Of a stretch of 64,000 nt of DNA, positions 1-59,729 are shown in pieces; positions within the stretch are counted from its first letter, which is position 1; every line of letters starts with the position of its first letter. A program made the translations under genes and the position numbers. The DNA lies in NCBI GenBank assembly GCA_007753915.1, contig CP036352.1, positions 3,225,306 to 3,289,305 of the forward strand. The letters are read 5' to 3'. Under the pieces are notes generated by a model. That model was not told the DNA's origin, made no database searches, and worked only from the letters and a program-made list of their open reading frames with translations. The DNA is from Phycisphaerae bacterium RAS2 (GTDB taxonomy: Bacteria > Planctomycetota > Phycisphaerae > UBA1845 > UTPLA1).

Positions 1-665
1 GCCGAGAGATACTCCCGTTGGTATTGCCGCGCCGCCGCCTGCAACTGAATTGACCACGCTCCCACCGCCGCCACCATCGCCGCCGCGCCGCAACACGCCA
101 GCACACCGATCCCGCGCCAGGCCGTCGGGTACGCTGCCATGCCATCCGCGCGCCTTGGCCACGCAGCAAGAGTCAACACCAGCATCAATCCGTTCACTCC
201 GTGCGCCGCCAGGCACCACGAGCACCAAACCGGCAGCCGCGTCGCCATCACGTAAACGAACCACGCCGACACCGCAGTGCCGGCCAGCACCAGCGCCATC
301 GGAGCGAGATGCCACGCCCGCGCGCGATGCGTCGGTACGCCGACCGCTGCGAACCAGAGGCCTGCCGCACAGAAGTAGGCAAAGCCGATCAGCGACGTGG
401 AGATTCCACGGAACTTTGCCCAATGGCTCGCGAGTACATAGTCGCAATTCACGCGCGCGGTGGGCGTGCAAAGCCGCGAGCCAAGTGACGCCGAAGAAGC
501 ATCCCCCGCGCTCGGCAGGGTCATCGCCAGCAGTACGGCACAGATAACCGCACCGCTTATCGCGCAAAGTATGATTAGTGTTTGAAGAAAGCGGCGACTG
601 CCCCCGCCGCGTCGAACCACTTCAAGCGGCCGCTCGTTGACTGCATCGGCCCGCGGTTCATTCAA
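1..665 (-). CDS. VKOR-family membrane thiol oxidoreductase, 5' part only (runs off left edge)
   Basis: The minus-strand frame stays open from 665 to the window edge. VKOR-family proteins form disulfides in exported proteins and pass the electrons to quinone. The visible part has a basic N-terminus and a first membrane segment (LIILCAISGAVICAVLLAM). A loop follows with two cysteines (RLCTPTARVNCDYVLAS), then a short motif ending FRGISTSLIGFAYF, as in VKOR proteins. Further membrane helices carry the redox pair CSWC. A TTG start at 665 is chosen because GGAG lies 8 nt upstream and an in-frame TGA lies 54 nt upstream. The C-terminus, and any fused thioredoxin domain, is outside the window. The downstream neighbour on the left is unknown. 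The family call rests on the loop cysteines, CSWC and the membrane pattern. Confidence 0.7.
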   Translation of the reverse strand, partial: MNEPRADAVNERPLEVVRRGGGSRRFLQTLIILCAISGAVICAVLLAMTLPSAGDASSASLGSRLCTPTARVNCDYVLASHWAKFRGISTSLIGFAYFCAAGLWFAAVGVPTHRARAWHLAPMALVLAGTAVSAWFVYVMATRLPVWCSWCLAAHGVNGLMLVLTLAAWPRRADGMAAYPTAWRGIGVLACCGAAAMVAAVGAWSIQLQAAARQYQREYLS

Positions 666-762
666 TGCCGTGGCTCCAGGAGTGGGCAATGGGCAACTCG
701 TGAGGCACTTTGATCGTCACAGTGGGCGGTGGCCACCCTGCGCAAGTCTCACGCCTCGAGCC

Positions 763-1440
763 TCACGTCTTCTCCGGCTGCACCGTCAGCATCTGCGTGC
801 CATTTCGCGGCACCTTGAGCATCTGCCTCGTGGAGCTGAGCACCTTGCCGTCGTCGCGCGCGTACTTCACCACGACGGCGATCTGCCTGCCTTCGAGGTC
901 CAGATCATCGCGCCATTGCATTCGCAGCCCGTAACCCCAGCCCAGCAGCGTGCGATCCTTGCATCGCCACGGATACGCCTTGTCCGGCGGCATTTCCCAT
1001 TCCTGAAGCGGCACCGCGACCTCGCGCCCCGCCCCGTCGCGATCCACGCGATAAAGACAAACGATAATCGTGCCCGAGCCGAACACACCGCGCGGCTTGC
1101 CCGGCCCTTCGAGGAACACCGAGCACTTGAACCCGTTCACGCGGCTTGTGCCGTCATTCGAAAACGTCAGCCACGGCTCGGCGGAGAAAAACTTCGTCAC
1201 GCGAACAATGTTCGTCTCCACCGGCGGCTCGCGATCATCCCCGTTCGATTTGGCCGCGCTGAACGTCGTCGTCACGCCCGGCTCCACCGGCTGCATGCAA
1301 CCCGGCAACGTCAGATTCACCCCGACCGCAACACAGGCGATCGCGAGGATTCTGCCATGCGAACTGGCCGTGATAAAACCCCGACAAGTCGAAGCAACGG
1401 CATTTCGACGTTTTGACGTTTTGACGTTTTGACGTTTCAT
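763..1440 (-). CDS. Predicted lipoprotein after the giant secretin gene; pilotin candidate
   Basis: A 225-residue protein with a basic N-terminus, a hydrophobic stretch and the lipobox LPGC around residues 45-48, so probably a lipid-anchored envelope protein. The mature part is soluble and beta-rich and matches no family I recognise. Its ATG overlaps the TGA of the secretin gene by 4 nt (ATGA), so translation is probably coupled, which fixes the start. The first dozen codons lie in an 8-bp tandem repeat. T2SS and T4P secretins often need a small outer-membrane lipoprotein (pilotin) for targeting. The position of this gene suggests that role, but there is no sequence evidence for it. It is the last gene of the secretion operon; the next gene on the same strand starts about 100 nt further on. 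Confidence 0.7.
   Translation of the reverse strand: MKRQNVKTSKRRNAVASTCRGFITASSHGRILAIACVAVGVNLTLPGCMQPVEPGVTTTFSAAKSNGDDREPPVETNIVRVTKFFSAEPWLTFSNDGTSRVNGFKCSVFLEGPGKPRGVFGSGTIIVCLYRVDRDGAGREVAVPLQEWEMPPDKAYPWRCKDRTLLGWGYGLRMQWRDDLDLEGRQIAVVVKYARDDGKVLSSTRQMLKVPRNGTQMLTVQPEKT
1407..1438. repeat. 8-bp tandem repeat, four units, at a gene start
   Basis: Read on the plus strand the unit is GACGTTTT, three perfect copies followed by a fourth with one changed base. It lies across the stop codon of the secretin gene and the first codons of the lipoprotein gene. Because the unit is not a multiple of three, gain or loss of a copy would shift the reading frame of the lipoprotein. Confidence 0.9.
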
Positions 1441-4400
1441 TCGCTCACTCCCGCCGCCGCTCGCGCCGCCGTTCGCCGCGCGACGATCTCTTCACCACTC
1501 GGCACCATCGGGCCGTATCGCGGCACCTGCGGTCCGTACCGCGGCTTGGGCTGCGACGGCTGCTGATCGTCTGATTCGCCACCCGGCCCCTCGTAGCGCA
1601 CCGGTTCGACGCCCGGCTCCAGGTCCGGCGCGAGGTCAATGTCCTCCACCTCAAACGGCGTCTCCGGCTTGACTTGCAACTTGTCCATCAACGGGCTTTG
1701 CTTCATTTCCGGTGTAATCAACCCGGAGATGTCGCGCGCCTCGATGCTGATCCGTCGCGCATCCTCCACCGTGCGCACCACGCGCGGTGTCATCGCGATC
1801 AGCAACTCGGTCTTGTTCTTCCGTCGCGTCGTCGTGCGGAACAGCATGCCCAGCCCGGGGATGTCGCCCAGCACCGGCACCTTGCTCTCCGCCTGATTCT
1901 CCGTCGTGGTGATCAAGCCGCCGATCACGACCGTCTCGCCGTCCTTCACCGCCACGCTCGTTGAGGCATTGCGCGTGTTGATGATCGGCGCGAACGACCC
2001 CGGCGCGATCTGAATCGTCGAATCGGTCAGCGACGAAATCTCCGGCTCAACGAGCATGTAGACAAACCCGTCGGGATTGATGTGCGGCTCGACCCGCAGG
2101 ATCACGCCGACTTCCTGATATTGCACGGCCGTGTTCACCTGACCCGCGAAGCTCGACGTGCCCTGCGGAATCGGCACCTGCTGGCCGATCAGAATCTGCG
2201 CCTGTTGATTGTCCTGACACATGATCATCGGGCGCTGAATCACTTCCAGCCGGCTGTCGGCCTGAAGCGCCCGCACGAGGAAGTTGAAATCCTCGCCGGT
2301 GATCGTGAACGAGAAACCACCCAGCCCGCTGCCGGCAGCACCCAGGTCCGTGCCGCCGACCACGTCGAAGTGGCTGCTTTGCAATACGCCGTTGCCGCCG
2401 GGAACGGCCGTCTCGCTGAACTTCAACTCCTGCAGTGCGAATTCCAACCCCATCTCGAAGCGGTCATCCAGCGACACTTCGGCGATCATCACCTGGATCA
2501 TCACCTGCGGCGGCGGCCGATCCAGCTGCTCCATCACGGTCATCACTTTGTCTTTGTACCGCGGGCTGACCGACACGATGAGCTGGTTCGACTCCGGGTG
2601 CGCCACGACCGACACTTCCTGCTCCATCCGTCGCTGCGGCGAGACCGTGTCGCCCAGCGTGTCCAGCCGCTGGCTCTCCGCGCTGAAAAACGACTCCATG
2701 GCCGACTGCACGTCCTCGGCGGTCGCGTTGTTCAGGGAATAGACGAAATTATCACGCTCGTTGATCGGCAGGCTGTCGAGCTGGTCGATCACGTCCGCCA
2801 CCACGTCGATGTCTTCTGGCCAGCCCGCGACGATCACGCTGTTCGTCCGCTCATCCGGCACGAACGTCGTCTTCGGTCGGCCGAACGTGCCCTTCATCGA
2901 GCCGCCGGTCTGCGAACCGGACGTCGGCACGCCGGCCGTGCTGCTTGATCCGCCTTCAACGCTGATGGAGCGGCCCTCTTGAAACGCTCGTTGATCCTCG
3001 GCGCCCTCTTCCTGGGCGAACATCTCATTCAGCAGGTCCACCATCTTCGTCGAGTCGGCATAGCTCAACGGGAAAACCTTCACCAGCACCGCGCGCTTCT
3101 GGATGCGATCCAGCTTGCGCACAAGCGATTCAATCAGTCGCAACGCCGACGGCGGGGCGACCGCCACGATGCTGTTCGTCCGCTCGTTGTAGGTGATCTG
3201 CACGTTCTCGCGCATCGTGCGGATCAGAATCTCCCGCCCGCGGAAGTCCTTGTCGCCGAACGAGATCAGAGTCGATGCAATGTCTCGCGCCGCTGCATCC
3301 TCGCCGCCGGCCGCCTCGGTGCTGCCTTCCGGCCCGCCTTTGCCCGTGATGACCGCATTGAGCAGTTCCGCCATCTTCTTGGCGTCTTCGTTCTCAATCG
3401 CGATCACGCCGACCTCGACCTGGCCCTTTACCTCGGTGTCATCCAGCCGCTGCACAAGCTTCGTAATGTTGTCCAGTTCGCCCGGTGGAGCCGTGACGAC
3501 GACTGAATTCGTTCGTTTGTCTTCAACCACCGCGATCGACTGACCGCCGCCGCTGCTGCCTTCGCCGCCGCCGCCCGTGCCGCTCTCGTAAAGCTCCTCG
3601 AGAATCTCCTTCACCCGCGCGGCCGGTGCCTTCCCCAGCGGAATCACCCGCGTCATCTCCGCCACCGTCGACGGCCGATCCAGCCGCTCCACAAGGTCGC
3701 GGATCAGAATGTGATCCTCGCGCGATGCGTTCACCAGCAGGCTGTTCGTCGTCGTGTTGGCCTCAATCGTCACCGGCACGCTTGCCACCTTCGTGCCCGT
3801 GTCGCCCTCGCGCGGCTTGTTCCGTTGCTCGAAGACGTTCTTGATCATCTCACCGATCCGCGTCGCCGAGGCGTCCGTCAGGCGATAGACCTCCATCACC
3901 TGCCCCGGCGTTCCCGGAGGGACATCGAGTTTCTTCACCAGCTCGACGGCGCTGTCGATGCCGTCCTTCGTCCCCCCGATCACCACGCGGTTGCTTCGTT
4001 CATCCGCGAAAATCGTGATGCCGAACCCGCCTGCGTTCTTGTCGCCACCCTCGCCCTCGCTGCGAACTTCCTTCAACTTGTCGAAATAATCGTTCACCTG
4101 CGCGGCGATCTTCACCGAGTCGCCGTGCTGAATGTCAATCAACCGCGTGATCGCCACGTCCCACGGCGTCGCCACGCTGTTCATCCGCTTGTGAATCTCG
4201 CGGATCACTTCCATGTTCTCCGGCGCCGCCGACACGATCAGGATGTTCGCCCGTGTGTCGATCGTCACTACCACCTTCTCGCGCGCCTTCAGCGCCTCGG
4301 TCTCCCTCGCGCCGCCCGGCCGATAGATGCCGTCGGTAAACAACTCGTCGATCGTGTCTTTCACGCGCTGCGCGCCGACGTTCTCACAGACGAAGTACTC

Positions 4401-7400
4401 CACCACGCCCGGCGCGACCATCTCCACGTCCAGCTCGGCCGTCTTCTGCTTCAACAGGTCGAAGTTCTCCTGCGACCCGGCGAACAAAATCGAGTTGCTC
4501 ACGTCGTCCACTTCGATCGCGACCTTGTCCTCCGGCCGGCTCTTGCCGTCCACCGTTCGCATTTCGGCGCGCTTGTCAAACAGCGACGTGAAGGCCCCCT
4601 TCAGCGTTGTCGCCGAGGCGTGCTTCAGCGTGATGATCTGAATCTTCGCCATCGGGTTCAGCTCGAGCGCCTCGATCTTGTCCACGACCGCCTTGATCGC
4701 GTCGAAATCGCCCTTGCTCGCCGCCACGATCAGCGAATTGCTGCGCTCGTCGGCCACGATCGCCGGCGTCTCCAGCTTCAATCCCTCGCCGCCCTCCTGT
4801 TGCGCCGCGCGCTCCTTCCACAACTCGGTCAGCTTCGTCGCCAGATCGCCCGCGCTGCCGTTCTTCAGCGTAATCGTGCGGATGTCCTCCACCAGCGCCG
4901 TCGCCGGCTTGTCCAACTGCCGAATCAACGCGCGAAGTTCCTCCATCCGCGCAGGCTTCGCCGCGATGATCAGTGACCGCGACCGCGGATCACCCTTGAT
5001 GATCACCGTCTCGGCCTTCTTCGCGTTCTCGCTCTTGCCGGTCGGCAGTGCTTCGGCCCGCTCCTTCATCATCGCCGTCAGCGCCGTCTCCAGCGATCCA
5101 GCGTTCGCATACTCCAGCGCCACGATCTGAAAGGGCATCACGTCCAGCCCTTTCACGTCGAGACTCTCCACCAGTCCCGTCAGAATCTTCACCGACGACG
5201 GCCGCCCCACCACCACCAACTGGTTCGACCGCATGTCGGCCATCACGACGGCGTTGTAAACCAGGGCCCCGGCCTCGCCATCGGGCGCGCCGCTCTTTTC
5301 GCTCTGGCCCGGCCGCGCCGTCAGGTTCTGGCTGTCGGTCAGCAGCTTCGTCACCTGCTCGGCCACTTCCGACGCATCGGCGAACTTCAGCGTCACCACC
5401 TGGCTGATGACCTCGGCCCGCGCCGGCTCCACGTCGAACGCGCCGGCCACCTGCTTCATGATCAGACAGTTTTCTTTCGTGCTCGCCACGACCAGCGAGT
5501 TGCTGTCCTTGTCGCCGAAGATGACCACAGGGCGATCAAGATTCACCTGTTGCAGGCGATTGCCATTCTCGTCCAACAGGTTGAACCGCCGAATGAAGTC
5601 CTTCATCGGCGTGTCGCCCGTCGCCGCCTTCTTGAGAATCTCGTTCAACAGCGCGCCCAGCGCGTCGGCCTTCGCCACGCGCAACGGGATGATCATCACG
5701 TCGGCCTCGCCCACCGACAGGCGGCCTTCCTTGTCGACCGGCTCCGGCTCGGCGTCCAGCCCCTTGATGATCCCCTCGACAAACTTCAGGTCCGTCTCAC
5801 CCGCGATGATGCTGATCGAGTTGGTCTGCGGGTCGGTCTCGATCTGAATCACGTTCTTGTCCAGCCCGCGCTGCGACAGGTACTTGTCGATAATCTTCCC
5901 CAGCACCTCCCCGACTTCCAGCACGCGGCGATTGCGGAATTGATACGTCTTGACGTTGCGGACCGTGTGCTCAGCTTCTTTCTCAATCTTGTCGATCAGG
6001 GCCAAAACCTGAGTCATCTTTTCGTCTGTCGCGGCGATGAACAATCCATTCGTCGTTGGGTCTGCGATGATGTCTACCTTGTCCTCCGGCTTCACCGGGC
6101 GGCTGCCGCGTGGCTCCAGCGGTTCAAACACCTTCTTCAGCGTTTCAGCCAGGCTCTTGGCCTGGGCATTCGTCAGTCCCTTGTATTCAATCTTCTTGGT
6201 TGGAATTGCCGTATCCAGCATCTGCAACAACGCTTCGATGATTTCGATATCCTCATCCGACCCCTCGATGAAGATGCCCTCTTCGCCCGCCTCCACCGCC
6301 GTGATCGGCGCGCCGCTCAACTTGCGGCTAAACGCCTCCTGCGCCGCCTCGGTCATCTGCGACATATCGACGCCTTGCTGCGCCGCGGCCTGGATCATCT
6401 GCTCGGCCGTCAGGCTCTGCGTCGGCTGCGTCGTTGGCACAGTCCGGGCTGCCGGTCGCACCGCTGTCGCCGGCTTCTTCTCCGCGGGCTGCGTCGTCGC
6501 CGAGCGAGGCCGAACGCGACCCACCACGGGCTTCGTCGCCTGCGTCGTCGCCGATTGATTCGCCGCGCCGGTCGATGCCCCGCGACCCGCCGACACCTGC
6601 TCCGAACCGTCCTCGTCGGAGTCGGCCTGCGCCAACAGCTCCGCCGAAGGCCGCACCGTCGGCATCGGTTCGTAGCTCGGAGGCAACTGCCCCATCGCCG
6701 TCGCCACCGACAGGTTCAAGAGCATGCCCTGCACCGTCCCCGCGACGATGGAACTTCGCCGCACGGGCAGGCCCAAGCTCTTCTCGTAGCGCCGCTGCTG
6801 CGTCCACGTCGCATCGCCGCGCGGGCCGCGATCGCCGCCGCCATCGCGCCGACGACCACCACCGTCACCGCGCCCGCCACGATCTCCTCGATCACCACGC
6901 CCGCCGCGATCACCTCGGTTGAACCCGCCCGACCCGCGACCGCTCTGGCTTGACTGACCGCCCTGCATGCTGTCAATGATCTTCTTCGCTTCCGTCGGCG
7001 TCAGTTGATTGTTCAGGCTGATGAACTTCCGCGTCGTCCCGCCGGCCGGGCCCATCGCGACGAGCGTCTTCACGATCCGCTCGGCCTCCTCATATTTGCC
7101 CTTCGATCCCGAGATCAGCAGCGCGCTGGCCCACGGCTCGGCGCCGATGCTCACGAGGTCGGGCTTGTAATCCTTCTGCACCTGTTGGCGATTCCGCTCG
7201 GCGTCGTTCAACTGCCGTTCGACCAGCCGCGCCAGATTATCCACGCTCTGACCCGCAGGCACCTGGAGAATGCGCACCTCGCCCGTCGCGCCCTCCATCT
7301 GGTTGTCGATGTTGTCGATCATCTTGCGAATCTGCGACAGGTCGTTCGCCTTTGCCCAGACGATCACGCTGTTCGTGCCCGTGTCGGCGACGATCGTCGG

Positions 7401-10400
7401 CGGCTTGCCGTACGACCCGCCGCGCGATTTGTCCTGCTGCCGCTTCGGGTCGTTGAATACGTTGTTCAGCGTGTTGGCGATTTCGCTCGCGTTGCCGTGC
7501 GCCAGCTTGAACGTCTGCGGCGCGCTCGAATCGTCCGGCCGCTCGACATCCAGCTCCTTGATCTTCTTCAGCGCATCCTCAACGCCTTCGGGCCGGCCCG
7601 CCACGATCACGGCATTCAGACTCTCCACGGCCTTGAGCCGCAGGTCGCCCGCCAGCACGACTTTCTCGTCCTTCTTCTCCTCGCGACCCTCCATCCACCA
7701 GGGGATGACCCGCTGGCCTTCGTCCGCCGGGGTGCGCTTGGACACTTTCAAGTATTCCGTCAATATCCCAATCATCTCGGCGGCGTCCATGTACTTCAGC
7801 GCCACCATTTCCATCGTCCGCCCGCCCTGCGGCGCGTCGGTGTCGATGTCCGCGATGATCCCGTCGATCATTTCCTTGGTCGTATCCGTGCAATACACCA
7901 GCAGCAGATTGCCCGTGGTCTCCGCCGTGATCGTCACCTGGTTGTCCAACTGCTTCGCGGCGGTCTCACCTCCGCCCATCCACGGCGGCAGGTTCGACGA
8001 CCGGCCGCGGGTGACGCCGCCCTTCTTGTCGAAGAAATCCTGTAGCGTCTTGGCGACTTCGTCCGCCACGGCGAACTTCAACGGAATCTTGAAGAACTTC
8101 AGCGCGCCGACGGTCGGCGTCTCCGACAGCTTCTTGATGACCTCTTCATTCACCTTGACGAATTCCGCTTCTGAAGCGAACACCAGCAGCGTATTGGTCG
8201 GTTCGTGAAACTCGGCCTTCACGCCGTCGCGACCGCCGCCCGCCTGCGTGCCGAACAGCTTGTTGATGTTCTCGGCCACACTCTTGGCCGGAACCATCTC
8301 CGGCATCGTCACCGTATGAACGCTCCGCCCGCCCTCCACGCTGTCCAGCATCTTGACCAGATTCGTGATCTGTTCGTACTCCGTCTGATTCGCGAAACAA
8401 ACGATCTTCGCGCTGCCGGCGACCGCGCGAATCGTCGCGCTGGACCGCTGCCGACGACCGGCGTTCTGCGCATCGAAAATCTGCTGCAACGTACTCGCCA
8501 CGTCCGGCGCATTCGCATTGGCGAGATCAATCACGTATTCCGATCGCGCGTCGCTGGACTTGTCCAGCTCGGCAATCAGCGTCGTGATCTCAACCATGTT
8601 CTCCTTCGACGCGGTGACAATCACGCTGTTCGTCGTGCCGTCCTCGGCCACCGACACCTGTTCGCGCACCGTCGGGTTGCGATTGACCGTCTGGAACGAC
8701 ACGCGCACCGCGTTGGCCACGCTCCACGGGTCGGCGTAGTTCAGCTTGAACGTCTTGCGCTCGCGCGACCCCTCCGCCAGCCCCTTCACATCGAGCGACT
8801 TGATCAGGCCTTCCACTTCCGTATAGTCCGAGTCCGACGACGTCACCACCAGCGTGTTGCTCGCGTCGTCCGGCGAGATGGTCACCGCCGGCGGCTGGCC
8901 CGGCACCGGCAGCATCGTTCGGCTCAATTGGCTGTTCAACACATTTGCCAGATCGCTGGCACGCGCGTTCACAACCTGATAAAGGTGGTTCTTCTGACCG
9001 CGCTCGCTGGGTACGTCGATTTGCGCCAGCACCCTGTCGATCAAACCGAACGTGATCGGACCGCCCGTCACGATCAGCGAATTCGTGCGGCCATCGGGCA
9101 CGACGCCGACAAGATCGAGCTTCACGTTGCCCATCGCGCCGGTCGCCGCAGCCTTCACCATCATTTCCGTCAGCTTGTTGTTGATGTCCACGGCGTTGGC
9201 GTGCTCCAAGTCATACCGCCGGACTTCCATGCCCGTTGGCGCCACGTCCATACCCGCCGCCACCTTCTTGATCTGATCGAACACGTCATCGTCCGCACCG
9301 AGCACATACAGCGTGCTCGCGCTCTTGCTGCCGGTGATTTTCACGTTGGCCTTGCCGCCGCGCGTCGTGCGGACCTCGCGGAAAATCTCCTGAATCTTCG
9401 GCGCGATCGCCTCTGCATCAGCGATTGTTACTCTGATCGTGCGAAACTCCTGCGTGATGCCGATGCGCTTCTCGAGCAATTCGATCTGCTCTTCGATCTC
9501 TTTCATCTGCGGTTCGGCCGCCTTCACAATCACCATGCCGCTGCCCGGATCGCCGTTGATAACGATGTCCTGCTGTGCCCCGCTGGTGACGAACACCGCC
9601 TTGAGCTGATTCGCGATCGCCGCTGCGTCGCCTTTCACCGAAAACTGCCGAATCGCGCTGCCTTCCGACTGGATGTCCAGATCCTTCACAATCTGCTCGA
9701 CGCGGTCAACGTCCTTCGTCTGCCCCGCGACGATCACGCTGTTCGTCCGCGCGTCCGCCGTCACCGACACCTGCCCGCCGCCACGACCGCCGCGGCCGCC
9801 CTGTCCGCCGCCGCCCTGATTCGCCGTCGCTGCCGAGACTTCCTTCGCGATGGTCGCGATCTCCGTCGCCCGCGCGTTCTTCAGTGCTACACGGCGCATC
9901 TCCGGCTTGGTCGTATTCGTTTTGTCTTCCAGGTCCTTGATGATCCCTTCCATCATGTCGAGTACGTCCGGCGGACCTTGCGCGATGATGCTGTTGGTCT
10001 GCGCATCGGCACTGATCTTCAGATTATCCGTTGACGAAAGCGTCGCTCCGGTTGCCTGACCCGGCTGCCCCGGCTGACCGCCCTGCATCTGGATGATCTG
10101 CTGCTGAACCTGCTCCGGCGTCTGCGGCTGACCCGGCTGCCCACCGCGACCACCGCCACGGCCGCCCCGCGCCGTCGGCAAACTGAAAATCTCACGCAAG
10201 TTCTCCGCCATCTGCGTCGCATCAAGATTGACCAGCGCGAAGATTTTGAGCGTGCCCTCGGCCGGGGGCACACGCTTGTCGATTTTCTTCAACACGTCCA
10301 CGATCAGCGGCACGTCCTGCGGCGGCGAAATCACCATCAGGCTCCGCGTCCGCGGATCGGGCACCACCTTGATCCGCGCCGGCGACTGCTGCACCATCAC

Positions 10401-13400
10401 CTGCTGCGGCTGTTGTTGGCGGCCGCCCCCGCCCGGCTGCCCCGGCTGACCGGGTTGGCCCGGCTGACCCGGTTGCGGCTGCGGCATCGGCACGGCTTGC
10501 GGTTGCGCCGCCTTGCCCTTGCCCTTGGTCAGCGCCGCCTGGCCCTGGTTGAACACCTGCTCCAGCAGTTGTGCCGCCGTTGCGACATCCGCATGCCTTA
10601 GCGGGAACACCCGAATCACCGGTGTCGTATCGCCCTCCAGCAGCTCCTCGATCAGGTCCTCCAGTTCGTCCAGCAATTCCTCCGGACCCTGAAGAATCAA
10701 TTTGTTCGTGTCGGGATCGACCGTGATCGTGACATTCTGCTCCTCCATCGCCTTGCCGATCACCTGCTCCGGCGTCTGCGCGGCCGGCTGGGCGATCTCG
10801 CGGCGTCCCACGGCGCGAGGCTGGGGCGCGGCGGCCGGTTCGGCGGGTTTCTCCGCCGGCTCGGCGTGATTGTGCTGCGGTTCATCCTCTTCCGGCTGCT
10901 GCGCCGCGGACGACGCCTGCTGCGCGTCCACATCGTCATAGAGCGGATCATCGAACGATGTATAAATCACCTGCGTCAGCGAGTTCGCCAGTGCCCCCGG
11001 CAATGCGCACGCATGCTGCCGACACAACGAACAATCCTTCGGATGCGAGATGTACAGCGGCTGATTCGCTACGACCTGGCCTGTCGCCGCCGCGCCGATC
11101 GCACTCAACAGGCTCGCCGGCAGCACGCACGGCGACATCCCGCCGCCATCGCTGCGCCGCTCCGTGGCCGCGGGGGCCGGCGCGGCTTCTTCTTCCGGCT
11201 CGTCCGCGTGAATGTCGATCAACTGCACCGCGCTCGTGTCCAGCGCGCCCTGGATCGTGAGCTTCATGCCTTCGGGCCGATTCCGCTCCAGCAGCTTCGC
11301 CATCGCGGCCGGCGGAATCTTCGAATCGATGATGCGGATCTTCCCGCTCTGACCTCGTTTGGGCACGTCCCACATCTTCACCATCTCTTCGACTTGCTCG
11401 CGCTGCGCCGGCTTGCAATTTTGCACCAGCAGCGTCCGCTCGCTCGGACCTTCCGACAGGCTGATCCCGCTGCTCTTGCGATCCGGATTCAGCAAATCTT
11501 CAATATCAAACGCGATGTCGAACGCCTTGCGGTGCTTCAGCTCAATCGTGAAATACGACTTGCCGCCCGTGCTATCCTCCGGCCCGCCCTCGATCTTCCT
11601 CGCGTCGGCAAAGACCAGCCCCAGCAGCCGCTCGATCGTGTCGAAATCGCTTTCGACCTTCACTCCGACCAGCAGCGCGTTCTCGAACGTATCCGCGTAG
11701 ATCGTCACCGCGTCCGGCGCGGCCAGGCTCACCGCCGCGGCCGATTTCGCCGGCGCACCCGGCGCACCGCCGCCGCCCGCCGCGGGCGTCGTCTTCGCCG
11801 AAGCCGTCGGCGTCATCGCCAGCAACGCGCGCAGCTTCTTCTCATCCTCCTCCGCGTCCATCACCAGATACTTGCGGAAGTACGGCTGGTCATACGGCAC
11901 ATCAAGCTGCTCGTGCAACTGAATCAGCTTGGCCACTTCCTCGCGCGGACCATCGATCACAATCTGTCGGCCCGACGTGACAATCGTCGTCGCGCGGCCG
12001 CCGCTTGCCGCCACGGCGGGCTGACCCGGCGCGCCGGCCGGCTTGGCCCCGCCGCCGCTGCTGACCATGTTGCGCAAGGCCGACGCCAGTTCCTCCGCGC
12101 CGCGATGCTTCGCTTCGAGGATGATCCGCGCCGTGCGCGTCTCCTCTTCGGAGTCCATGTCGGCCGCCAGCTTCTTGATCTGATCCAGTTCCTTCACCGG
12201 CGCGCGCACCAGCAGCGCGTTCGTGATCGGCTCCGCCACGATCCGCACCTGCCCGCCCGGCGCGGCTCCGGCCGGTCGCGGCGGCTGACCCGGTTGCGCC
12301 GGCACCATCGCCGGCCCCGCTTTCGCGCCCACCGCCTGCAACAGGATCGGCGCGATCGACTCGGCCCGGGCATGACTCAATCGGATGATCGTCAGCTCGG
12401 CGTCGGACTCGATGTCCAGCGCCGCGATCAGCGGCTTGACCTTCTCAATCAATTCCGCCCCGCCGTACACCTGCACCGCATTGTTGAAGCCGTCGGCCAT
12501 GAAGAACGGGCCGCCCATCGCCCGCCCCGGCTGCGCCGGCGCCGATGGATACATTTGTCGCAGCAGCGCTGTCACGTCATCCGCGTCGGCCTTCTCCAGC
12601 GTGAACCGCTCCAGCCGCGCCTCGCCCGCCGCCGCCTGCTCGTCCAGCCGATCAATCAGCGGCTCGGCCTGCTTCCACTCCTTATCCGTGCAATACACGA
12701 CCAACATGCCGGTCGTGTCGTCCGGAATGATCCGCGGCCCGCCTCCGCCCGGCATCGGCGGCGGCTGACCCGGTTGACCGGGCTGACCCGGCGCCCGACC
12801 CGCGCCTTGAATCACCCGCGCCTGCTGCACTGCGATCATCGACTGCTGCACAATCGTCGCCACCACGCTCGGCGTCGCGGCCTTGAGCTTCACCACGTGT
12901 TCCTGCGATTCATCCCCTGCGACGTCCAGCTTCTCGATCGCCTCCTTCATGCGATCCAGATTCTGCCGGCTCGCCATCACGAGCAGCGAGTTCGCCGTCC
13001 GCACCGTCACGCGGTCGGCCGGCTGACCCGGCTTCGCCACCGGCGGGAACATCTGCATCAACTGCGCCGCCAGCGGACCGGCATCGGCGTGCGCCAGCTC
13101 GATCACCTCGCTGACCTGATTCTCCGACGGAACATCCCACTCTTTCACCGTGCGCTCGGCCGCCGCGATGCCCTCGGCTCCGCCGACAAGAATCACCGAA
13201 TTGGTCATCGGATCGGCGAAGATGTCGCGATCCATCGCCGCGCGATGCTCCGGCGAGACGTACATCGTCGGATCGCGCGCCAACGTCTGCTGCTCCTTTG
13301 CGAAGATTTGCTTCAGGCTCGTCGTCAGCGCGTTCGAGTCGGCGTATTGCAGCTTGATGACTTTCATCTCCGGCGTCTGCGGGCCGATCCCCGTGTCCAG

Positions 13401-14771
13401 CCGCGCCACCAGCTCACCGATCTCGTCCAGCATCCGCTGCGGCGCCTTGATCAGCAGCGCGTTGTTGCGGATGTCCGCGATGATGTCGATCTTCTTCGCC
13501 GTCTCGGCGGTTTGATCCACGCCGGGACCGGTCCGTCCCGGCGCCGTCGGCGCGGTGACTGGATACACCTGTCTCAACAGCGTTTGAAGATCCGACGCTT
13601 TCGACCGCTCCAGCTTGATGAACCGGCTCGGCCGCGGATCAAACTGCGGCGGGTCCTGCATGGTCACAATGGTTGACACGACATCCCGGAACCGCCGATG
13701 CTCGCGAACGAGGCCCGTCAGTTCGATCCGCTCGCCGTTGACCTGCGTTCCGTACGTATCCGAGAACCACGGCCGATACCGCTCGATGATCTCATACGGA
13801 TTCCAACCCTGCGGCACGTCGAACTGCACCAGCACGATGTCGAACTCACCCGGCTTGGCGCGATCCATCGCCTCGAACGAGTCGAACATCTTCTCCGCCG
13901 GAATCTCTCGCATCAGGTCCGGCAGCCGCTTGATCGTCAGGAAGTTCCCCTCGCGCTGGATCAGGTACTTGTTCAGCGGCCGCGCCAGCAGCAGCTCGTT
14001 CAACTGATCCATTGCCTCGACGTAGGTGAACGTCTTCGGGCTGTGGAACGTCAGGCTGTCCGAAATCGGCGGATCGGGCTGGTTCAGGAACGACAGCCCG
14101 CTCATTCGCGCGAAGTCCGACAGCACGTCGCTCCACGGCGTGTTTACATAATCAAACCGGTACGACCGCGAAGTCGGATCGACCGGCGCAACCGTGAACG
14201 TCATCATTGTCTTCGGCGCGTCCGCGTCATCCTTCTCCGCCGGCGCGGAAGACGCCCCGCCCGTCGCCAGCCTCGGCATGTCCGCCGCAGGTTGAGCGCC
14301 GGCGTGCTGCGACCCCGCTCGCGCGCCTGCGCCCGCACCGGCCGGTCCACGCGGACGACTCGCACCGTCGCGACCGCCCTCATTCATCCCGTTGAAGTTT
14401 TGCGTCGGCACGCCCTGGGGCGACGGCATCGTTGCCGGCCACGTCGAAGGCTGACCTTGACGCGTCGCGGTCATCGGTTGCGCCGGTTCGGGCTTCGCCG
14501 TCTCCGTCGATGCCGGCGGCGGTGTGCGCCGCATGGTCGGTTTCGACGGCGCGGGCTGCGTTGTCGAAGGTTGACTCGAAGCAGGCTGGCTCGTCGCCGG
14601 TTGGTTGATCGACTGCAAGGCCGCGCGGCGCGCGGCTTCCAGCGCGTCGTCGTTCGAGGGCTGCGTCGTCGCCTGACCCCGTGCGACGGCCGACAACACC
14701 AGCATCGCCGCGATCGAGCCAATCCCCGCTCGACCCCAGCGCCGAATATCCTGTCTCGCGTGCGACTTCAT
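1437..14771 (-). CDS. gspD: Giant secretin (GspD/PilQ superfamily) with about 40 N1-type modules
   Basis: A 4444-residue outer-membrane secretin, against about 600-800 for ordinary GspD. Order: signal peptide (1-33); Gln/Pro/Thr-rich linker to about 190; N0-like region (190-370); about 40 degenerate N1/NolW-like modules of 75-110 residues; secretin domain (about 4084-4334); charged tail. Each module has an 'L.hAdA..la..L..lf' helix, then 'vtiiaD.rTNSviV.a', then a helix ending in 'LD'. Modules form three blocks (about 375-1200, 1340-2600, 2820-4080), separated by linkers that each hold a hydrophobic, signal-like stretch. The secretin domain has VMIQVMIAEV near its start and VPVLGDIPGLGMLFRTT near its end, as in functional secretins. 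Several module loops carry PGQ or RGG tracts. The start at 14771 overlaps the upstream stop (TGATG) and has GGGAGGAAA upstream; a longer reading to 14888 would overlap the preceding gene. Last-but-one gene of the operon. Confidence 0.93.
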   Translation of the reverse strand: MKSHARQDIRRWGRAGIGSIAAMLVLSAVARGQATTQPSNDDALEAARRAALQSINQPATSQPASSQPSTTQPAPSKPTMRRTPPPASTETAKPEPAQPMTATRQGQPSTWPATMPSPQGVPTQNFNGMNEGGRDGASRPRGPAGAGAGARAGSQHAGAQPAADMPRLATGGASSAPAEKDDADAPKTMMTFTVAPVDPTSRSYRFDYVNTPWSDVLSDFARMSGLSFLNQPDPPISDSLTFHSPKTFTYVEAMDQLNELLLARPLNKYLIQREGNFLTIKRLPDLMREIPAEKMFDSFEAMDRAKPGEFDIVLVQFDVPQGWNPYEIIERYRPWFSDTYGTQVNGERIELTGLVREHRRFRDVVSTIVTMQDPPQFDPRPSRFIKLERSKASDLQTLLRQVYPVTAPTAPGRTGPGVDQTAETAKKIDIIADIRNNALLIKAPQRMLDEIGELVARLDTGIGPQTPEMKVIKLQYADSNALTTSLKQIFAKEQQTLARDPTMYVSPEHRAAMDRDIFADPMTNSVILVGGAEGIAAAERTVKEWDVPSENQVSEVIELAHADAGPLAAQLMQMFPPVAKPGQPADRVTVRTANSLLVMASRQNLDRMKEAIEKLDVAGDESQEHVVKLKAATPSVVATIVQQSMIAVQQARVIQGAGRAPGQPGQPGQPPPMPGGGGPRIIPDDTTGMLVVYCTDKEWKQAEPLIDRLDEQAAAGEARLERFTLEKADADDVTALLRQMYPSAPAQPGRAMGGPFFMADGFNNAVQVYGGAELIEKVKPLIAALDIESDAELTIIRLSHARAESIAPILLQAVGAKAGPAMVPAQPGQPPRPAGAAPGGQVRIVAEPITNALLVRAPVKELDQIKKLAADMDSEEETRTARIILEAKHRGAEELASALRNMVSSGGGAKPAGAPGQPAVAASGGRATTIVTSGRQIVIDGPREEVAKLIQLHEQLDVPYDQPYFRKYLVMDAEEDEKKLRALLAMTPTASAKTTPAAGGGGAPGAPAKSAAAVSLAAPDAVTIYADTFENALLVGVKVESDFDTIERLLGLVFADARKIEGGPEDSTGGKSYFTIELKHRKAFDIAFDIEDLLNPDRKSSGISLSEGPSERTLLVQNCKPAQREQVEEMVKMWDVPKRGQSGKIRIIDSKIPPAAMAKLLERNRPEGMKLTIQGALDTSAVQLIDIHADEPEEEAAPAPAATERRSDGGGMSPCVLPASLLSAIGAAATGQVVANQPLYISHPKDCSLCRQHACALPGALANSLTQVIYTSFDDPLYDDVDAQQASSAAQQPEEDEPQHNHAEPAEKPAEPAAAPQPRAVGRREIAQPAAQTPEQVIGKAMEEQNVTITVDPDTNKLILQGPEELLDELEDLIEELLEGDTTPVIRVFPLRHADVATAAQLLEQVFNQGQAALTKGKGKAAQPQAVPMPQPQPGQPGQPGQPGQPGGGGRQQQPQQVMVQQSPARIKVVPDPRTRSLMVISPPQDVPLIVDVLKKIDKRVPPAEGTLKIFALVNLDATQMAENLREIFSLPTARGGRGGGRGGQPGQPQTPEQVQQQIIQMQGGQPGQPGQATGATLSSTDNLKISADAQTNSIIAQGPPDVLDMMEGIIKDLEDKTNTTKPEMRRVALKNARATEIATIAKEVSAATANQGGGGQGGRGGRGGGQVSVTADARTNSVIVAGQTKDVDRVEQIVKDLDIQSEGSAIRQFSVKGDAAAIANQLKAVFVTSGAQQDIVINGDPGSGMVIVKAAEPQMKEIEEQIELLEKRIGITQEFRTIRVTIADAEAIAPKIQEIFREVRTTRGGKANVKITGSKSASTLYVLGADDDVFDQIKKVAAGMDVAPTGMEVRRYDLEHANAVDINNKLTEMMVKAAATGAMGNVKLDLVGVVPDGRTNSLIVTGGPITFGLIDRVLAQIDVPSERGQKNHLYQVVNARASDLANVLNSQLSRTMLPVPGQPPAVTISPDDASNTLVVTSSDSDYTEVEGLIKSLDVKGLAEGSRERKTFKLNYADPWSVANAVRVSFQTVNRNPTVREQVSVAEDGTTNSVIVTASKENMVEITTLIAELDKSSDARSEYVIDLANANAPDVASTLQQIFDAQNAGRRQRSSATIRAVAGSAKIVCFANQTEYEQITNLVKMLDSVEGGRSVHTVTMPEMVPAKSVAENINKLFGTQAGGGRDGVKAEFHEPTNTLLVFASEAEFVKVNEEVIKKLSETPTVGALKFFKIPLKFAVADEVAKTLQDFFDKKGGVTRGRSSNLPPWMGGGETAAKQLDNQVTITAETTGNLLLVYCTDTTKEMIDGIIADIDTDAPQGGRTMEMVALKYMDAAEMIGILTEYLKVSKRTPADEGQRVIPWWMEGREEKKDEKVVLAGDLRLKAVESLNAVIVAGRPEGVEDALKKIKELDVERPDDSSAPQTFKLAHGNASEIANTLNNVFNDPKRQQDKSRGGSYGKPPTIVADTGTNSVIVWAKANDLSQIRKMIDNIDNQMEGATGEVRILQVPAGQSVDNLARLVERQLNDAERNRQQVQKDYKPDLVSIGAEPWASALLISGSKGKYEEAERIVKTLVAMGPAGGTTRKFISLNNQLTPTEAKKIIDSMQGGQSSQSGRGSGGFNRGDRGGRGDRGDRGGRGDGGGRRRDGGGDRGPRGDATWTQQRRYEKSLGLPVRRSSIVAGTVQGMLLNLSVATAMGQLPPSYEPMPTVRPSAELLAQADSDEDGSEQVSAGRGASTGAANQSATTQATKPVVGRVRPRSATTQPAEKKPATAVRPAARTVPTTQPTQSLTAEQMIQAAAQQGVDMSQMTEAAQEAFSRKLSGAPITAVEAGEEGIFIEGSDEDIEIIEALLQMLDTAIPTKKIEYKGLTNAQAKSLAETLKKVFEPLEPRGSRPVKPEDKVDIIADPTTNGLFIAATDEKMTQVLALIDKIEKEAEHTVRNVKTYQFRNRRVLEVGEVLGKIIDKYLSQRGLDKNVIQIETDPQTNSISIIAGETDLKFVEGIIKGLDAEPEPVDKEGRLSVGEADVMIIPLRVAKADALGALLNEILKKAATGDTPMKDFIRRFNLLDENGNRLQQVNLDRPVVIFGDKDSNSLVVASTKENCLIMKQVAGAFDVEPARAEVISQVVTLKFADASEVAEQVTKLLTDSQNLTARPGQSEKSGAPDGEAGALVYNAVVMADMRSNQLVVVGRPSSVKILTGLVESLDVKGLDVMPFQIVALEYANAGSLETALTAMMKERAEALPTGKSENAKKAETVIIKGDPRSRSLIIAAKPARMEELRALIRQLDKPATALVEDIRTITLKNGSAGDLATKLTELWKERAAQQEGGEGLKLETPAIVADERSNSLIVAASKGDFDAIKAVVDKIEALELNPMAKIQIITLKHASATTLKGAFTSLFDKRAEMRTVDGKSRPEDKVAIEVDDVSNSILFAGSQENFDLLKQKTAELDVEMVAPGVVEYFVCENVGAQRVKDTIDELFTDGIYRPGGARETEALKAREKVVVTIDTRANILIVSAAPENMEVIREIHKRMNSVATPWDVAITRLIDIQHGDSVKIAAQVNDYFDKLKEVRSEGEGGDKNAGGFGITIFADERSNRVVIGGTKDGIDSAVELVKKLDVPPGTPGQVMEVYRLTDASATRIGEMIKNVFEQRNKPREGDTGTKVASVPVTIEANTTTNSLLVNASREDHILIRDLVERLDRPSTVAEMTRVIPLGKAPAARVKEILEELYESGTGGGGEGSSGGGQSIAVVEDKRTNSVVVTAPPGELDNITKLVQRLDDTEVKGQVEVGVIAIENEDAKKMAELLNAVITGKGGPEGSTEAAGGEDAAARDIASTLISFGDKDFRGREILIRTMRENVQITYNERTNSIVAVAPPSALRLIESLVRKLDRIQKRAVLVKVFPLSYADSTKMVDLLNEMFAQEEGAEDQRAFQEGRSISVEGGSSSTAGVPTSGSQTGGSMKGTFGRPKTTFVPDERTNSVIVAGWPEDIDVVADVIDQLDSLPINERDNFVYSLNNATAEDVQSAMESFFSAESQRLDTLGDTVSPQRRMEQEVSVVAHPESNQLIVSVSPRYKDKVMTVMEQLDRPPPQVMIQVMIAEVSLDDRFEMGLEFALQELKFSETAVPGGNGVLQSSHFDVVGGTDLGAAGSGLGGFSFTITGEDFNFLVRALQADSRLEVIQRPMIMCQDNQQAQILIGQQVPIPQGTSSFAGQVNTAVQYQEVGVILRVEPHINPDGFVYMLVEPEISSLTDSTIQIAPGSFAPIINTRNASTSVAVKDGETVVIGGLITTTENQAESKVPVLGDIPGLGMLFRTTTRRKNKTELLIAMTPRVVRTVEDARRISIEARDISGLITPEMKQSPLMDKLQVKPETPFEVEDIDLAPDLEPGVEPVRYEGPGGESDDQQPSQPKPRYGPQVPRYGPMVPSGEEIVARRTAARAAAGVSE

Positions 14772-16408
14772 CACGGTTTCCTCCCGAGACCTTTGCCCGT
14801 CGGCGTCATCGGCGTCGGCGGCGGCGCCGCACTGGCCGACTGAACAGCTTCTGCCCCATCCGACTGCGCTTCCGGACTGGCCAGCCACGTGTCAATCGCA
14901 GCCGCCAGGTCCCCATCCGATCGCGCTTCCAGTTTCACCCGATCCGTGAACTTCCGGCCCAAGGGATACAGGTAGTAATTCCCGCTCGGCATCTTCACCA
15001 CGCCGCCGCGCGGATGAACCGCCAGCAACGTGCCGGTGTCCACTGCGCCCGGCGCCCCGGCCGGAATGACCTTTCGCGTCGTACCCCCCGTCGCGATCAA
15101 TTCCTGCGTGCCCTGATAGGTCACCAATCCTGATACACTCATGGTCGCGTCCGGCGGCGGGTCATTTACCGCGATCGGCGCTTCCACGCGCACTTCCGCG
15201 GACTCAACCGGCACGAGGTACGTCTGCTTACCGGCCCCGGGAGCGAACGACCGCGGCGGCAGCTTCTTGCCTGATGGGTAGGTCGCCGTCACCGCGACGC
15301 GCTGCGCTTTGAACTCATCAACGTCGGTCCGCCCCGGTTTGATCCGCATCGTCGGCAGCGTCTTCGTCTTGCCGTCATCGCCGGTCACCGTCACGTCGAC
15401 ATCCACCGGCTCCTTCGTGGAATTCTCGACCGCCAGATCGACGTACACCGGCGGCGGCGGCGGCGTGTGCGACGGTACGACGTAGGTCCAGTCTTTCTTC
15501 GCGTTGAAGTCCAGCCGCTCCGGGCCGAACGCCTTGCCGTCGACGTACGAGCCCATTACTTCCACCGCGTCGCCGAGTCCTTTGACGGGCTTCTGACTCT
15601 TGCCTGCCACGGTCTCGACAATCGGCTCTTCCGGCTGGCCCTCCCAGAAGTAGGTCACCTTCAGCGCCACCATCTTCAGGTCCTGATTGTCGATCAGCAC
15701 CACGTTCTCCGGCGGCGGCAGATACGTCTTGAAGATATTCCGCTTCGCAAGGATCGCCTGGAGCACTTCGCTCGGAAGCGCCTCGCGCGCCGGGGGCGGC
15801 GGTGCTTCACCCGCCTTGATTGCCTCCATCATCGTGACGGCCAGCGCCGCGTCCGGCATCTTCTTCTTGTCGATTTCCGGCAGCACCGGCGTCTCGATCG
15901 TCAACTCCAGCTTCAGCTCATCACGCATTCGGCCTTTGCCCTGAATCGGCGAAGCGCCCAGCTTGGTGATCTGTGCAAGGTACGGCGTGCGATACAGCTC
16001 GTTGACGAACGCTCGCGCCTTGTCAAACGGCCCCTCCGCCACGATCCGGTAGGCCACGGTCGTGATGTTTGTCTTGTTTCCGATCTTCGTGCCGCTGGTC
16101 GGCGTGAAGAAGGCCGCCTCGAAGCCGTGCCGCTGCGCGACTTCCTTGAGGCTCTTGCCGAACTGATTGGACGCGATCGAACGATCGTATGAAAACGTCT
16201 TTGACGCGGCGTCGAGCCACGTGCGCACCAGCCGCCGGCGCTGGCGCACGATGTTTTCCAGCCGGTCATTCTCCTCGCGCAATTCAACAATGCGCTTCTT
16301 GGAGTCCGTGATGGGCGATATGAAGAATAAATTCACGCCCTGATACAGAACGTACAACCCCACCGCTCCGCCGATCAGGAACAACAGGGTGCGCTCGCGC
16401 TGGTTCAT
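14771..16408 (-). CDS. GspM/PilO-like inner-membrane assembly protein with C-terminal GspC/PilP-like segments
   Basis: 545 residues: a short cytoplasmic N-terminus, one membrane helix at about 9-30, a coiled coil at about 35-65, then a ferredoxin-like PilO/GspM-type domain to about 190. GspM and PilO are normally under about 220 residues, so the remainder is an addition. After a Pro-rich linker comes LAKRNIFKTYLPPP, followed by a beta-rich stretch that resembles the RNxF start and homology region of GspC/PilP. Near the end LLAVHPRGGVVKMPSG looks like a second such element. This suggests a GspM-GspC-type fusion linking the inner-membrane platform to the secretin; no separate gspC is visible here. 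The ATGA overlap with the upstream gspL fixes the start. The PilO-like call is fairly sure; the GspC comparison is inference. Confidence 0.75.
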   Translation of the reverse strand: MNQRERTLLFLIGGAVGLYVLYQGVNLFFISPITDSKKRIVELREENDRLENIVRQRRRLVRTWLDAASKTFSYDRSIASNQFGKSLKEVAQRHGFEAAFFTPTSGTKIGNKTNITTVAYRIVAEGPFDKARAFVNELYRTPYLAQITKLGASPIQGKGRMRDELKLELTIETPVLPEIDKKKMPDAALAVTMMEAIKAGEAPPPPAREALPSEVLQAILAKRNIFKTYLPPPENVVLIDNQDLKMVALKVTYFWEGQPEEPIVETVAGKSQKPVKGLGDAVEVMGSYVDGKAFGPERLDFNAKKDWTYVVPSHTPPPPPVYVDLAVENSTKEPVDVDVTVTGDDGKTKTLPTMRIKPGRTDVDEFKAQRVAVTATYPSGKKLPPRSFAPGAGKQTYLVPVESAEVRVEAPIAVNDPPPDATMSVSGLVTYQGTQELIATGGTTRKVIPAGAPGAVDTGTLLAVHPRGGVVKMPSGNYYLYPLGRKFTDRVKLEARSDGDLAAAIDTWLASPEAQSDGAEAVQSASAAPPPTPMTPTGKGLGRKP

Positions 16409-58347: not shown

Positions 58348-58590
58348 TCAGAGGTTCAACTCGTCCACCAACTCATCGCGAGTGATCCCGTGGTGCTCGG
58401 CAACTTGTTTGAGCAATTCGTTCAATGTACCAGACTTCATCTCACGATGAGCAGGAACGGCGATTCGATGCCGTCCATAGCGTTCGGTTACCAGGTGAAT
58501 GTGACTGCCTCGTTGCCCTATTCGAACGTAACCGAACCGCTCAAGCGCCCGGGCGAGATGCTCCCCAACCACGCCGCGCGGCAATCTCAC
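58348..58590 (-). CDS. hicA: HicA-type mRNA interferase toxin
   Basis: 80 residues of the double-stranded-RNA-binding HicA fold. The catalytic-type His lies in a GSHIHL segment, and the C-terminal helix matches other HicA proteins. The GTG start overlaps the hicB stop by 4 nt. Toxin acts by cutting mRNA; neutralised by HicB upstream. Confidence 0.85.
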   Translation of the reverse strand: MRLPRGVVGEHLARALERFGYVRIGQRGSHIHLVTERYGRHRIAVPAHREMKSGTLNELLKQVAEHHGITRDELVDELNL

Positions 58591-58811
58591 GCTACAACCT
58601 CGTCGCGCACAAAGTGAAGGCGTATCCGGCCCGGCTTGACGGGCTCATCCGCGAAGCGCCCGGCCACCGCATCCAACACCATCGCACGAAGGTCATCCAA
58701 GTCATCACCCTGGGTAAAGATCCCATACGGGTGACACACGGCGCTGTACCCGCCATCTTCGGGCTCTTCCTGAACAATGAATACGATTTCTTCAAGTTGA
58801 CTTGTGGACAT
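58587..58811 (-). CDS. hicB: HicB-type antitoxin
   Basis: 74 residues from the ATG at 58811, with AGGAG 7 nt upstream. The sequence contains a YSAVCHPYGIFTQGDDLDD core, as in HicB partial RNase-H-fold antitoxins. No DNA-binding C-terminal domain is seen, so this is the short form. It is encoded upstream of hicA, the reverse of the E. coli order. Confidence 0.83.
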   Translation of the reverse strand: MSTSQLEEIVFIVQEEPEDGGYSAVCHPYGIFTQGDDLDDLRAMVLDAVAGRFADEPVKPGRIRLHFVRDEVVA

Positions 58812-58901
58812 TGAAGCGCTCCTGACTAGTGAGTATATCGCGCGATGGACACAATCCCAAAGCGAATCCAACTCCCCGCTGTAGGCAAGGTTCTGGGACC
58901 C

Positions 58902-59681
58902 CTACTCCAACCCCTCAATAATCGCGATAACATCCTTCGGATCGGGCCGGTCGTGCGTCTTGCGCGCGATCCATCGCCACGCAACCCGCCCGGTGCGGTC
59001 GATCAGGTAGTGCGCGGGGATGGTCGTGTCCTTGTCCATGGTCGATTCATGAAAGAACAGCCCCAGTGCGCGAATCACGTTCACCTTCTCATCACTAAGA
59101 ATGTCGTAACTCAACTTCTGCCGCGTCGTGACGCCCTTGGCCTCTTTGACCGTGTCCGACGAAATGGCGACCAGCTTGCCGCCGACCGATTCAAGCTTCC
59201 TGCTTACAGCTTCGAGACCTCGAAGCTCGGACATGCACACCGGTCACCAATGCCCACGATAAAAGACCAGCAGCGCCGGGCCGTTGGCATGGAGCGACGC
59301 CAGCGAAACCGGTCGCCCCTCCTGATTGGGCAGCGTGAAATCGGCCACGCGATCCCCCACGGTCGGCGCGTTCGGCGCCTCGGGCTGGACCGACATCACA
59401 AACATGAAATACATGAAGAAGCTTCCCAGCAGCACGCTGGCCGCGCCGGTCGGCACCGTCCACCACGATCGGCAGCGCGCCATCGCCCACACGGAAATCG
59501 CCATCCCGATCAGCGCAACCACGATGTTCGGCAGCGCCGTCGAGCGAATCCACGGCACATCCATCAGCGGCATGTACGAAGCCATGCCGATCAGCGTGAC
59601 CGGCAGGCCGATCAGCGCGGCGCGCTTGGCGACCGTTCTACGAGACGCGGTCGCGGAACTCGGCGCGGGGGACGTTGTCAT
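58902..59681 (-). CDS. Membrane-anchored peroxiredoxin-like selenoprotein candidate (in-frame TGA = Sec)
   Basis: One frame of 259 residues read through a single TGA at 59246-59244. Three N-terminal membrane helices (about 20-96) are followed by a periplasmic AhpC/TSA thioredoxin fold beginning PTVGDRVADFTLP. The TGA falls in FYRGHW-TGA-PVCMSELRG, exactly where family members have the peroxidatic Cys (GHWCPVC). Before and after the TGA the frame, composition and family match continue without a shift. AAGGAG is 8 nt before the ATG at 59681. A hairpin with a G-containing loop follows the TGA, as in bacterial SECIS elements. TGA is a normal stop elsewhere here, so this is not a changed code. A simple nonsense mutation is the alternative. 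Confidence 0.8.
59208..59227 (-). promoter_or_regulatory. Candidate bacterial SECIS hairpin
   Basis: Starting 16 nt after the TGA, the mRNA reads AGCUUCGA-GGUC-UCGAAGCU, a perfect 8-bp stem (9 if the loop closes) with loop GGUC. Loop distance from UGA is 24 nt. SelB-binding hairpins usually have a short stem, a loop with a G in its first positions, and a loop 16-37 nt from the UGA; all three hold. The stem is also coding sequence (around SELRGLEAV). Confidence 0.7.
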
Positions 59682-59729
59682 GGATTACACTCCTTGTAAT
59701 TTTCACCGGCTCGACGTGAGCCACGAAGA

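Follow-up and report, generated by a model that had tools for sequence, protein, structure and literature searches.

Bacterial selenoproteins related to peroxiredoxins have been divided into Sec-peroxiredoxins, which carry a TxxU motif, and Prx-like selenoproteins, which carry UxxC (PMC1088965, PMC2398784, PMC13188914). The latter were described from the Sargasso Sea as 'Prx-like' proteins with UXXC in place of TXXU (PMC1088965), and in the accessible passages of later work proteins of this kind appear as the GOS 'Prx-like 1' group, assigned to PF00578 (PMC2398784), and as 'Prx-like thiol:disulfide oxidoreductase' in a 2026 review (PMC13188914). The word 'transmembrane' is absent from the main text of both the 2026 review and the GOS paper, and among openly licensed papers a full-text search combining selenoprotein with Planctomycetota or Phycisphaer(ae) returned no study recognisable by title or abstract as one on selenoproteins; a Planctomycetes genome paper, PMC4807772, does mention selenocysteine. 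The locus analysed here had been proposed, in an initial annotation made from the sequence, to encode a peroxiredoxin-like selenoprotein with an N-terminal membrane anchor; its remark that UxxC peroxiredoxin-like selenoproteins are known in bacteria agrees with the Prx-like definition as given in the passages available of PMC1088965.

The window, that is, the whole stretch of 64,000 nucleotides analysed, comes from Phycisphaerae bacterium RAS2. At 58902-59681 on the minus strand it holds a gene for a product of 259 residues, in which a three-helix membrane anchor is followed by a peroxiredoxin-fold redox domain. Re-reading of the frame (59681-58902), which reproduced the annotated coordinates and sequence exactly, gave an ATG start, a TAG end and exactly one internal TGA (59246-59244, minus strand), the predicted selenocysteine codon of residue 146 in the motif W-U-P-V-C; a Shine-Dalgarno-like AAGGAG (59690-59695, minus strand) lies 8 nt upstream of the ATG. 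That the frame continues on both sides of the TGA is confirmed by a PF00578 (AhpC-TSA) match to residues 108-235, which spans it (E 9.7e-28, 97 bits against a cut-off of 26). The AhpC/TSA domain as a whole occupies residues 104-259 (58905-59372, minus strand) and contains U146, C149 and P222. The gene neighbourhood is common to the genus and is not kept beyond a small subgroup, and therefore gives no clue to function, substrate or electron donor; the TrkH-like and unknown secreted neighbours likewise offered no functional lead. Directly downstream, at 58348-58871 (minus strand), lies a HicA toxin-like gene (PF07927) whose small upstream partner, itself without a Pfam match, is probably HicB. 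Elsewhere in the window, a single open frame of 4483 residues (1437-14888, minus strand) carries 28 Secretin_N domains and a C-terminal Secretin domain; secretins of the GspD/PilQ type have only a few Secretin_N domains.

The three-helix anchor is supported by an AlphaFold2 model built on a 30-sequence alignment (mean pLDDT 93), in which helices at residues 9-34, 50-69 and 75-96 (59394-59657, minus strand) precede the peroxiredoxin-fold domain. Lysine and arginine residues are concentrated in the N-terminal tail (mean 2.9) and in the loop joining helices 2 and 3 (3.6), against 1.0 both in the loop joining helices 1 and 2 and after helix 3, a distribution which, by the positive-inside rule, places the N-terminus inside and the redox domain outside. 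On this charge distribution, the redox domain is likely to be extracytoplasmic, in the periplasm. Neither Pfam nor NCBIfam gives a significant match to the three-helix part, and among 30 orthologues no conserved cysteine is present in the helices, which argues against a DsbD-like relay and in favour of an anchor rather than a device for electron transfer. A DsbD-type protein is also encoded in the genome, together with two homologues of VKOR, of which one sits at the window edge (window 3-689, minus strand, running off the edge; genome 3225473-3225883), so that an extracytoplasmic disulfide economy probably exists in this organism.

The redox domain has the thioredoxin-like peroxiredoxin fold of the AhpC/TSA type (Z 23), with an active site of another kind. 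In the alignment to AhpE, FYRGHW-U-PV-C lies over FFPLAFT-GI-C, with U146 at Thr42, C149 at Cys45 and P222 at Arg116; in the alignment to Aeropyrum PrxQ, U146 falls at Ser46 and C149 at Cys49. Cys45 of AhpE and Cys49 of Aeropyrum PrxQ are taken here to be the peroxidatic cysteines, and Arg116 of AhpE the catalytic arginine. The initial annotation had put the TGA in the exact place of the peroxidatic cysteine; this has to be corrected, since the UGA replaces the conserved threonine three residues before it, and C149 is the equivalent of the peroxidatic residue. Within the peroxiredoxin set of P, T/S, C and R only the cysteine is kept, R142, U146 and P222 standing at the P, T and R positions, and the signature P-x-x-x-T/S-x-x-C with its catalytic arginine is absent. 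R142, W145, U146, C149 and P222 are invariant in 30 orthologues. In thioredoxin and ResA a W-U/C-x-x-C motif faces a proline (cis-Pro), and by sequence the active site W-U146-P-V-C149 with P222 is thioredoxin/ResA-like, set on a peroxiredoxin fold.

Taken as a whole, these features are best explained, with good confidence, by a seleno-thiol:disulfide oxidoreductase that is tethered to the membrane, faces away from the cytoplasm and may act as a peroxidase as well. In the proposed mechanism, the three N-terminal helices would tether the product with its N-terminus inside and its redox domain in the periplasm, where Sec146 would attack an extracytoplasmic disulfide (or a peroxide); C149 would then resolve the Sec146 intermediate by forming a selenenylsulfide, which a separate donor in the membrane, for example the DsbD-type protein of this genome, may re-reduce. 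The main competing explanation is a membrane-tethered, selenium-dependent peroxidase acting on lipid or hydrogen peroxide, with Sec146 reacting with the peroxide and C149 resolving it. The domain is indeed closest in fold and sequence to the PrxQ/AhpE peroxidases, and selenium is well suited to peroxide reduction; against this, three of the four peroxiredoxin active-site residues (P, T and R) have given way to the invariant R142, U146 and P222, and the rest of the layout is, by sequence, that of thioredoxin/ResA, so that we regard a dedicated peroxidase as rather unlikely. Disulfide reduction rather than peroxide reduction is favoured with moderate confidence.

A search for the selenocysteine machinery, set beforehand as the main test of the proposal, found all of its parts: a tRNA-Sec with anticodon TCA (71 bits; ARAGORN), adjacent selA (509 bits) and selB (298 bits) genes and a selD gene (372 bits), the three protein genes all scoring above their cut-offs. 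The selD gene (L048; G000:C1:2633461-2634384, minus strand) itself has an in-frame UGA at its active site, in the motif GUAGK. A tRNA-Sec scoring more than 60 bits is present in 31 of the 34 genomes carrying the gene; among the remaining three, selA was found in two and none was seen in the third, which is 75% complete. These 34 genomes, out of 101 related ones searched, hold full-length matches, every one of them with an in-frame TGA (a single one in 33, two in G100). In the 30 orthologues that were extracted from these 34 and aligned, with identities to the window protein of 33-91%, the TGA falls in one and the same column in all 30; the same-genus orthologue, 91% identical in protein sequence, has it at the identical position. 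Between the latter and the window gene, dN/dS is 0.24 upstream of the TGA and 0.14 downstream, the downstream value indicating purifying selection on the portion behind the stop. In a wider phylum sample full-length matches are mostly TGA forms, and the alignment of cysteine homologues that had been called for turned up natural cysteine codons at the UGA position in three (L061, L062 and L070). A UGA conserved at a redox position, with cysteine in some homologues, is the pattern by which bacterial selenoproteins are recognised. The comparative record thus makes it close to certain that this is a genuine selenoprotein gene whose UGA (59246-59244) is read as selenocysteine, and the proposal of a selenocysteine gene is upheld by a TGA kept in independent genomes together with a complete Sec pathway. 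The ribosome would read the codon by means of SelB, tRNA-Sec and the hairpin that follows it, as the conserved parts suggest.

Among the explanations that deny full decoding, the one that survives best supposes that the UGA is decoded only in part and that the 145-residue protein ending there has a function in its own right. In bacteria, Sec insertion has to compete with termination at UGA, and the short form would by itself make up a whole membrane protein of three helices; there is no sign of selection for the truncated form, however, and in the matches examined, which were obtained with the full protein rather than the helices alone as query, a redox domain comes after the helices in every case, which leaves this explanation improbable. 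Reassignment of UGA within the lineage to a different amino acid, for instance Trp, would account for a frame open through the codon, and can be set aside almost entirely because UGA ends 18 of the 33 likely genes of the window, so that the code is not reassigned, because the natural variants have Cys and not Trp, and because the Sec pathway is complete. A nonsense mutation or sequencing error in a cysteine gene, that is, a pseudogene, has nothing in its favour beyond the TGA itself and is refuted, with hardly any doubt left, by the TGA column common to all 30 independent genomes and by purifying selection on both sides.

The hairpin, AGCTTCGA-GGTC-TCGAAGCT, lies at 59208-59227 (minus strand), with its loop at 59219-59216 starting 24 nt after the UGA. 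The annotation had described a hairpin with a GGUC loop at the right distance; its presence and position stand and are supported across relatives, whereas in this gene alone the fold is within chance (z -1.4 relative to dinucleotide-shuffled sequences and -1.6 relative to synonymous recodings). A Rfam scan of 1 kb around the gene gave no match at a believable score. Comparison is more informative: in the 24 orthologues with ELRG(L/F), 94% of pair cells are preserved and C-G pairs are exchanged for U-A; across the phylum, compensatory stems surround GG-containing loops (CUCCGA/UCGGAG, CUUCGA/UCGAAG, CUCCAA/UUGGGG and CUGCAA/UUGCAG); in ELVGL forms the hairpin is shifted. The 28 LRGL forms use five codon combinations in all, and 16 of them have CTC-CGA-GGT-CTC, for which codon use elsewhere in these genes predicts about 0.0016 each. 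Over 30 genes, which are non-independent, the fold z relative to synonymous recoding averages -1.1. Between the two closest genes, the 20 codons that follow the UGA show synonymous differences at 1 of 15 sites, against 6 of 11 for the 15 codons that precede it. In one family (f61), the cysteine forms L061 and L062 are each sister to a different Sec form and both have lost the hairpin, with folding energies of -4.1 and -3.8 kcal/mol, where the Sec forms reach -9.2 to -12.2 kcal/mol. A broader set of cysteine forms, mostly from other subfamilies, also gives weaker folds on average (-6.5 kcal/mol, compared with -10.5 kcal/mol). Comparative evidence thus describes what would be a SECIS element, a hairpin close behind the UGA that carries G in its apical loop, and it is through this evidence only, the single gene being not significant, that the assignment is convincing. 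Set against L059, L060 and L068, the two cysteine forms L061 and L062 represent two apparently independent Sec-to-Cys conversions within one family, a natural experiment for SECIS function.

The distribution of the architecture was followed with the DNA pattern F[FY]RGxW-TGA-xx-Cys, scanned over 84,980 species genomes, a search whose counts are lower bounds. Among the matches listed, many are unanchored, and two or three hydrophobic N-terminal segments occur, besides Planctomycetota, in Verrucomicrobiota, Acidobacteriota, Rokubacteria, Myxococcota and Pseudomonadota. Carriers of the anchored gene that can be cultivated include gamma proteobacterium NOR5-3 and Plesiocystis pacifica. In a tree of the redox domain calculated without the helices, again from the matches listed, the 71 anchored rows need two label changes against a shuffled mean of 43, the anchored label having been assigned by hand from hydropathy and the support values being those of a quick search. 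The anchored forms of the six phyla therefore appear to be largely one lineage, apart from the unanchored forms; the latter are represented by FYRGxWUPxC forms from the pattern scan, standing in for the published Prx-like 1/2/3. A peptide-pattern scan of the genome contigs with the cysteine-substituted protein found no relative, probably in part because TGA lay outside what its active-site pattern can match. In the relatives, a further group of matches has one in-frame TGA and the redox domain only (for example G075:C42:21545-21859, G097:C305:2541-2852 and G087:C244:20467-20778); these are probably further Prx-like or ResA-like selenoprotein families within the same order.

The redox domain and its UxxC motif are thus already known, and what is undescribed, in the passages found of the openly licensed literature, is the three-helix anchored lineage. 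With its recognition, the UxxC Prx-like selenoproteins gain a membrane-anchored architecture that is well supported and found widely, suggesting that selenium is used outside the cytoplasm in several bacterial phyla. Such genes would be split into two fragments by most annotation pipelines, in which UGA is treated as the end of translation. Since two Sec-to-Cys conversions are accompanied by loss of the hairpin, both the SECIS assignment and the Sec/Cys exchange are directly testable. More speculatively, the lineage may be a previously undescribed, cross-phylum selenoprotein family in which a specific module of three helices holds the redox domain at the outer face of the inner membrane. Selenium would then take part in the disulfide (or lipid peroxide) economy outside the cytoplasm in Planctomycetota, Acidobacteriota, Verrucomicrobiota and others, and the helices could bind a membrane partner or quinone and not only anchor the domain. 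We hold this broader proposal tentatively, as a doubtful extension of the data.

Compared with the described systems, the protein shares something with each. With PrxQ/Bcp and AhpE it has in common the fold of residues 104-259 (Z 21-23) and a C149 that matches their peroxidatic cysteine, and it differs in that R142, U146 and P222 replace their active-site P, T and R. It resembles ResA/TlpA in the W-C/U-x-x-C motif, the membrane tether and the predicted extracytoplasmic location of the domain, and ResA chains are among the matches of its profile (E 9.6e-17); ResA, however, is tethered by a single helix, in contrast to the three found here, and the score against NF002854 is 32.2 for a cut-off of 170. 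The SelL-related redox proteins (NF040769) also combine a Prx-like fold with a redox Sec/Cys motif, although the score of 47.9 lies below their cut-off of 120. With the Prx-like UxxC selenoproteins the protein shares an AhpC/TSA domain bearing UxxC instead of TxxU, and it is set apart from them by its three-helix N-terminal anchor, a feature unmentioned in the passages available of PMC1088965, PMC2398784 and PMC13188914.
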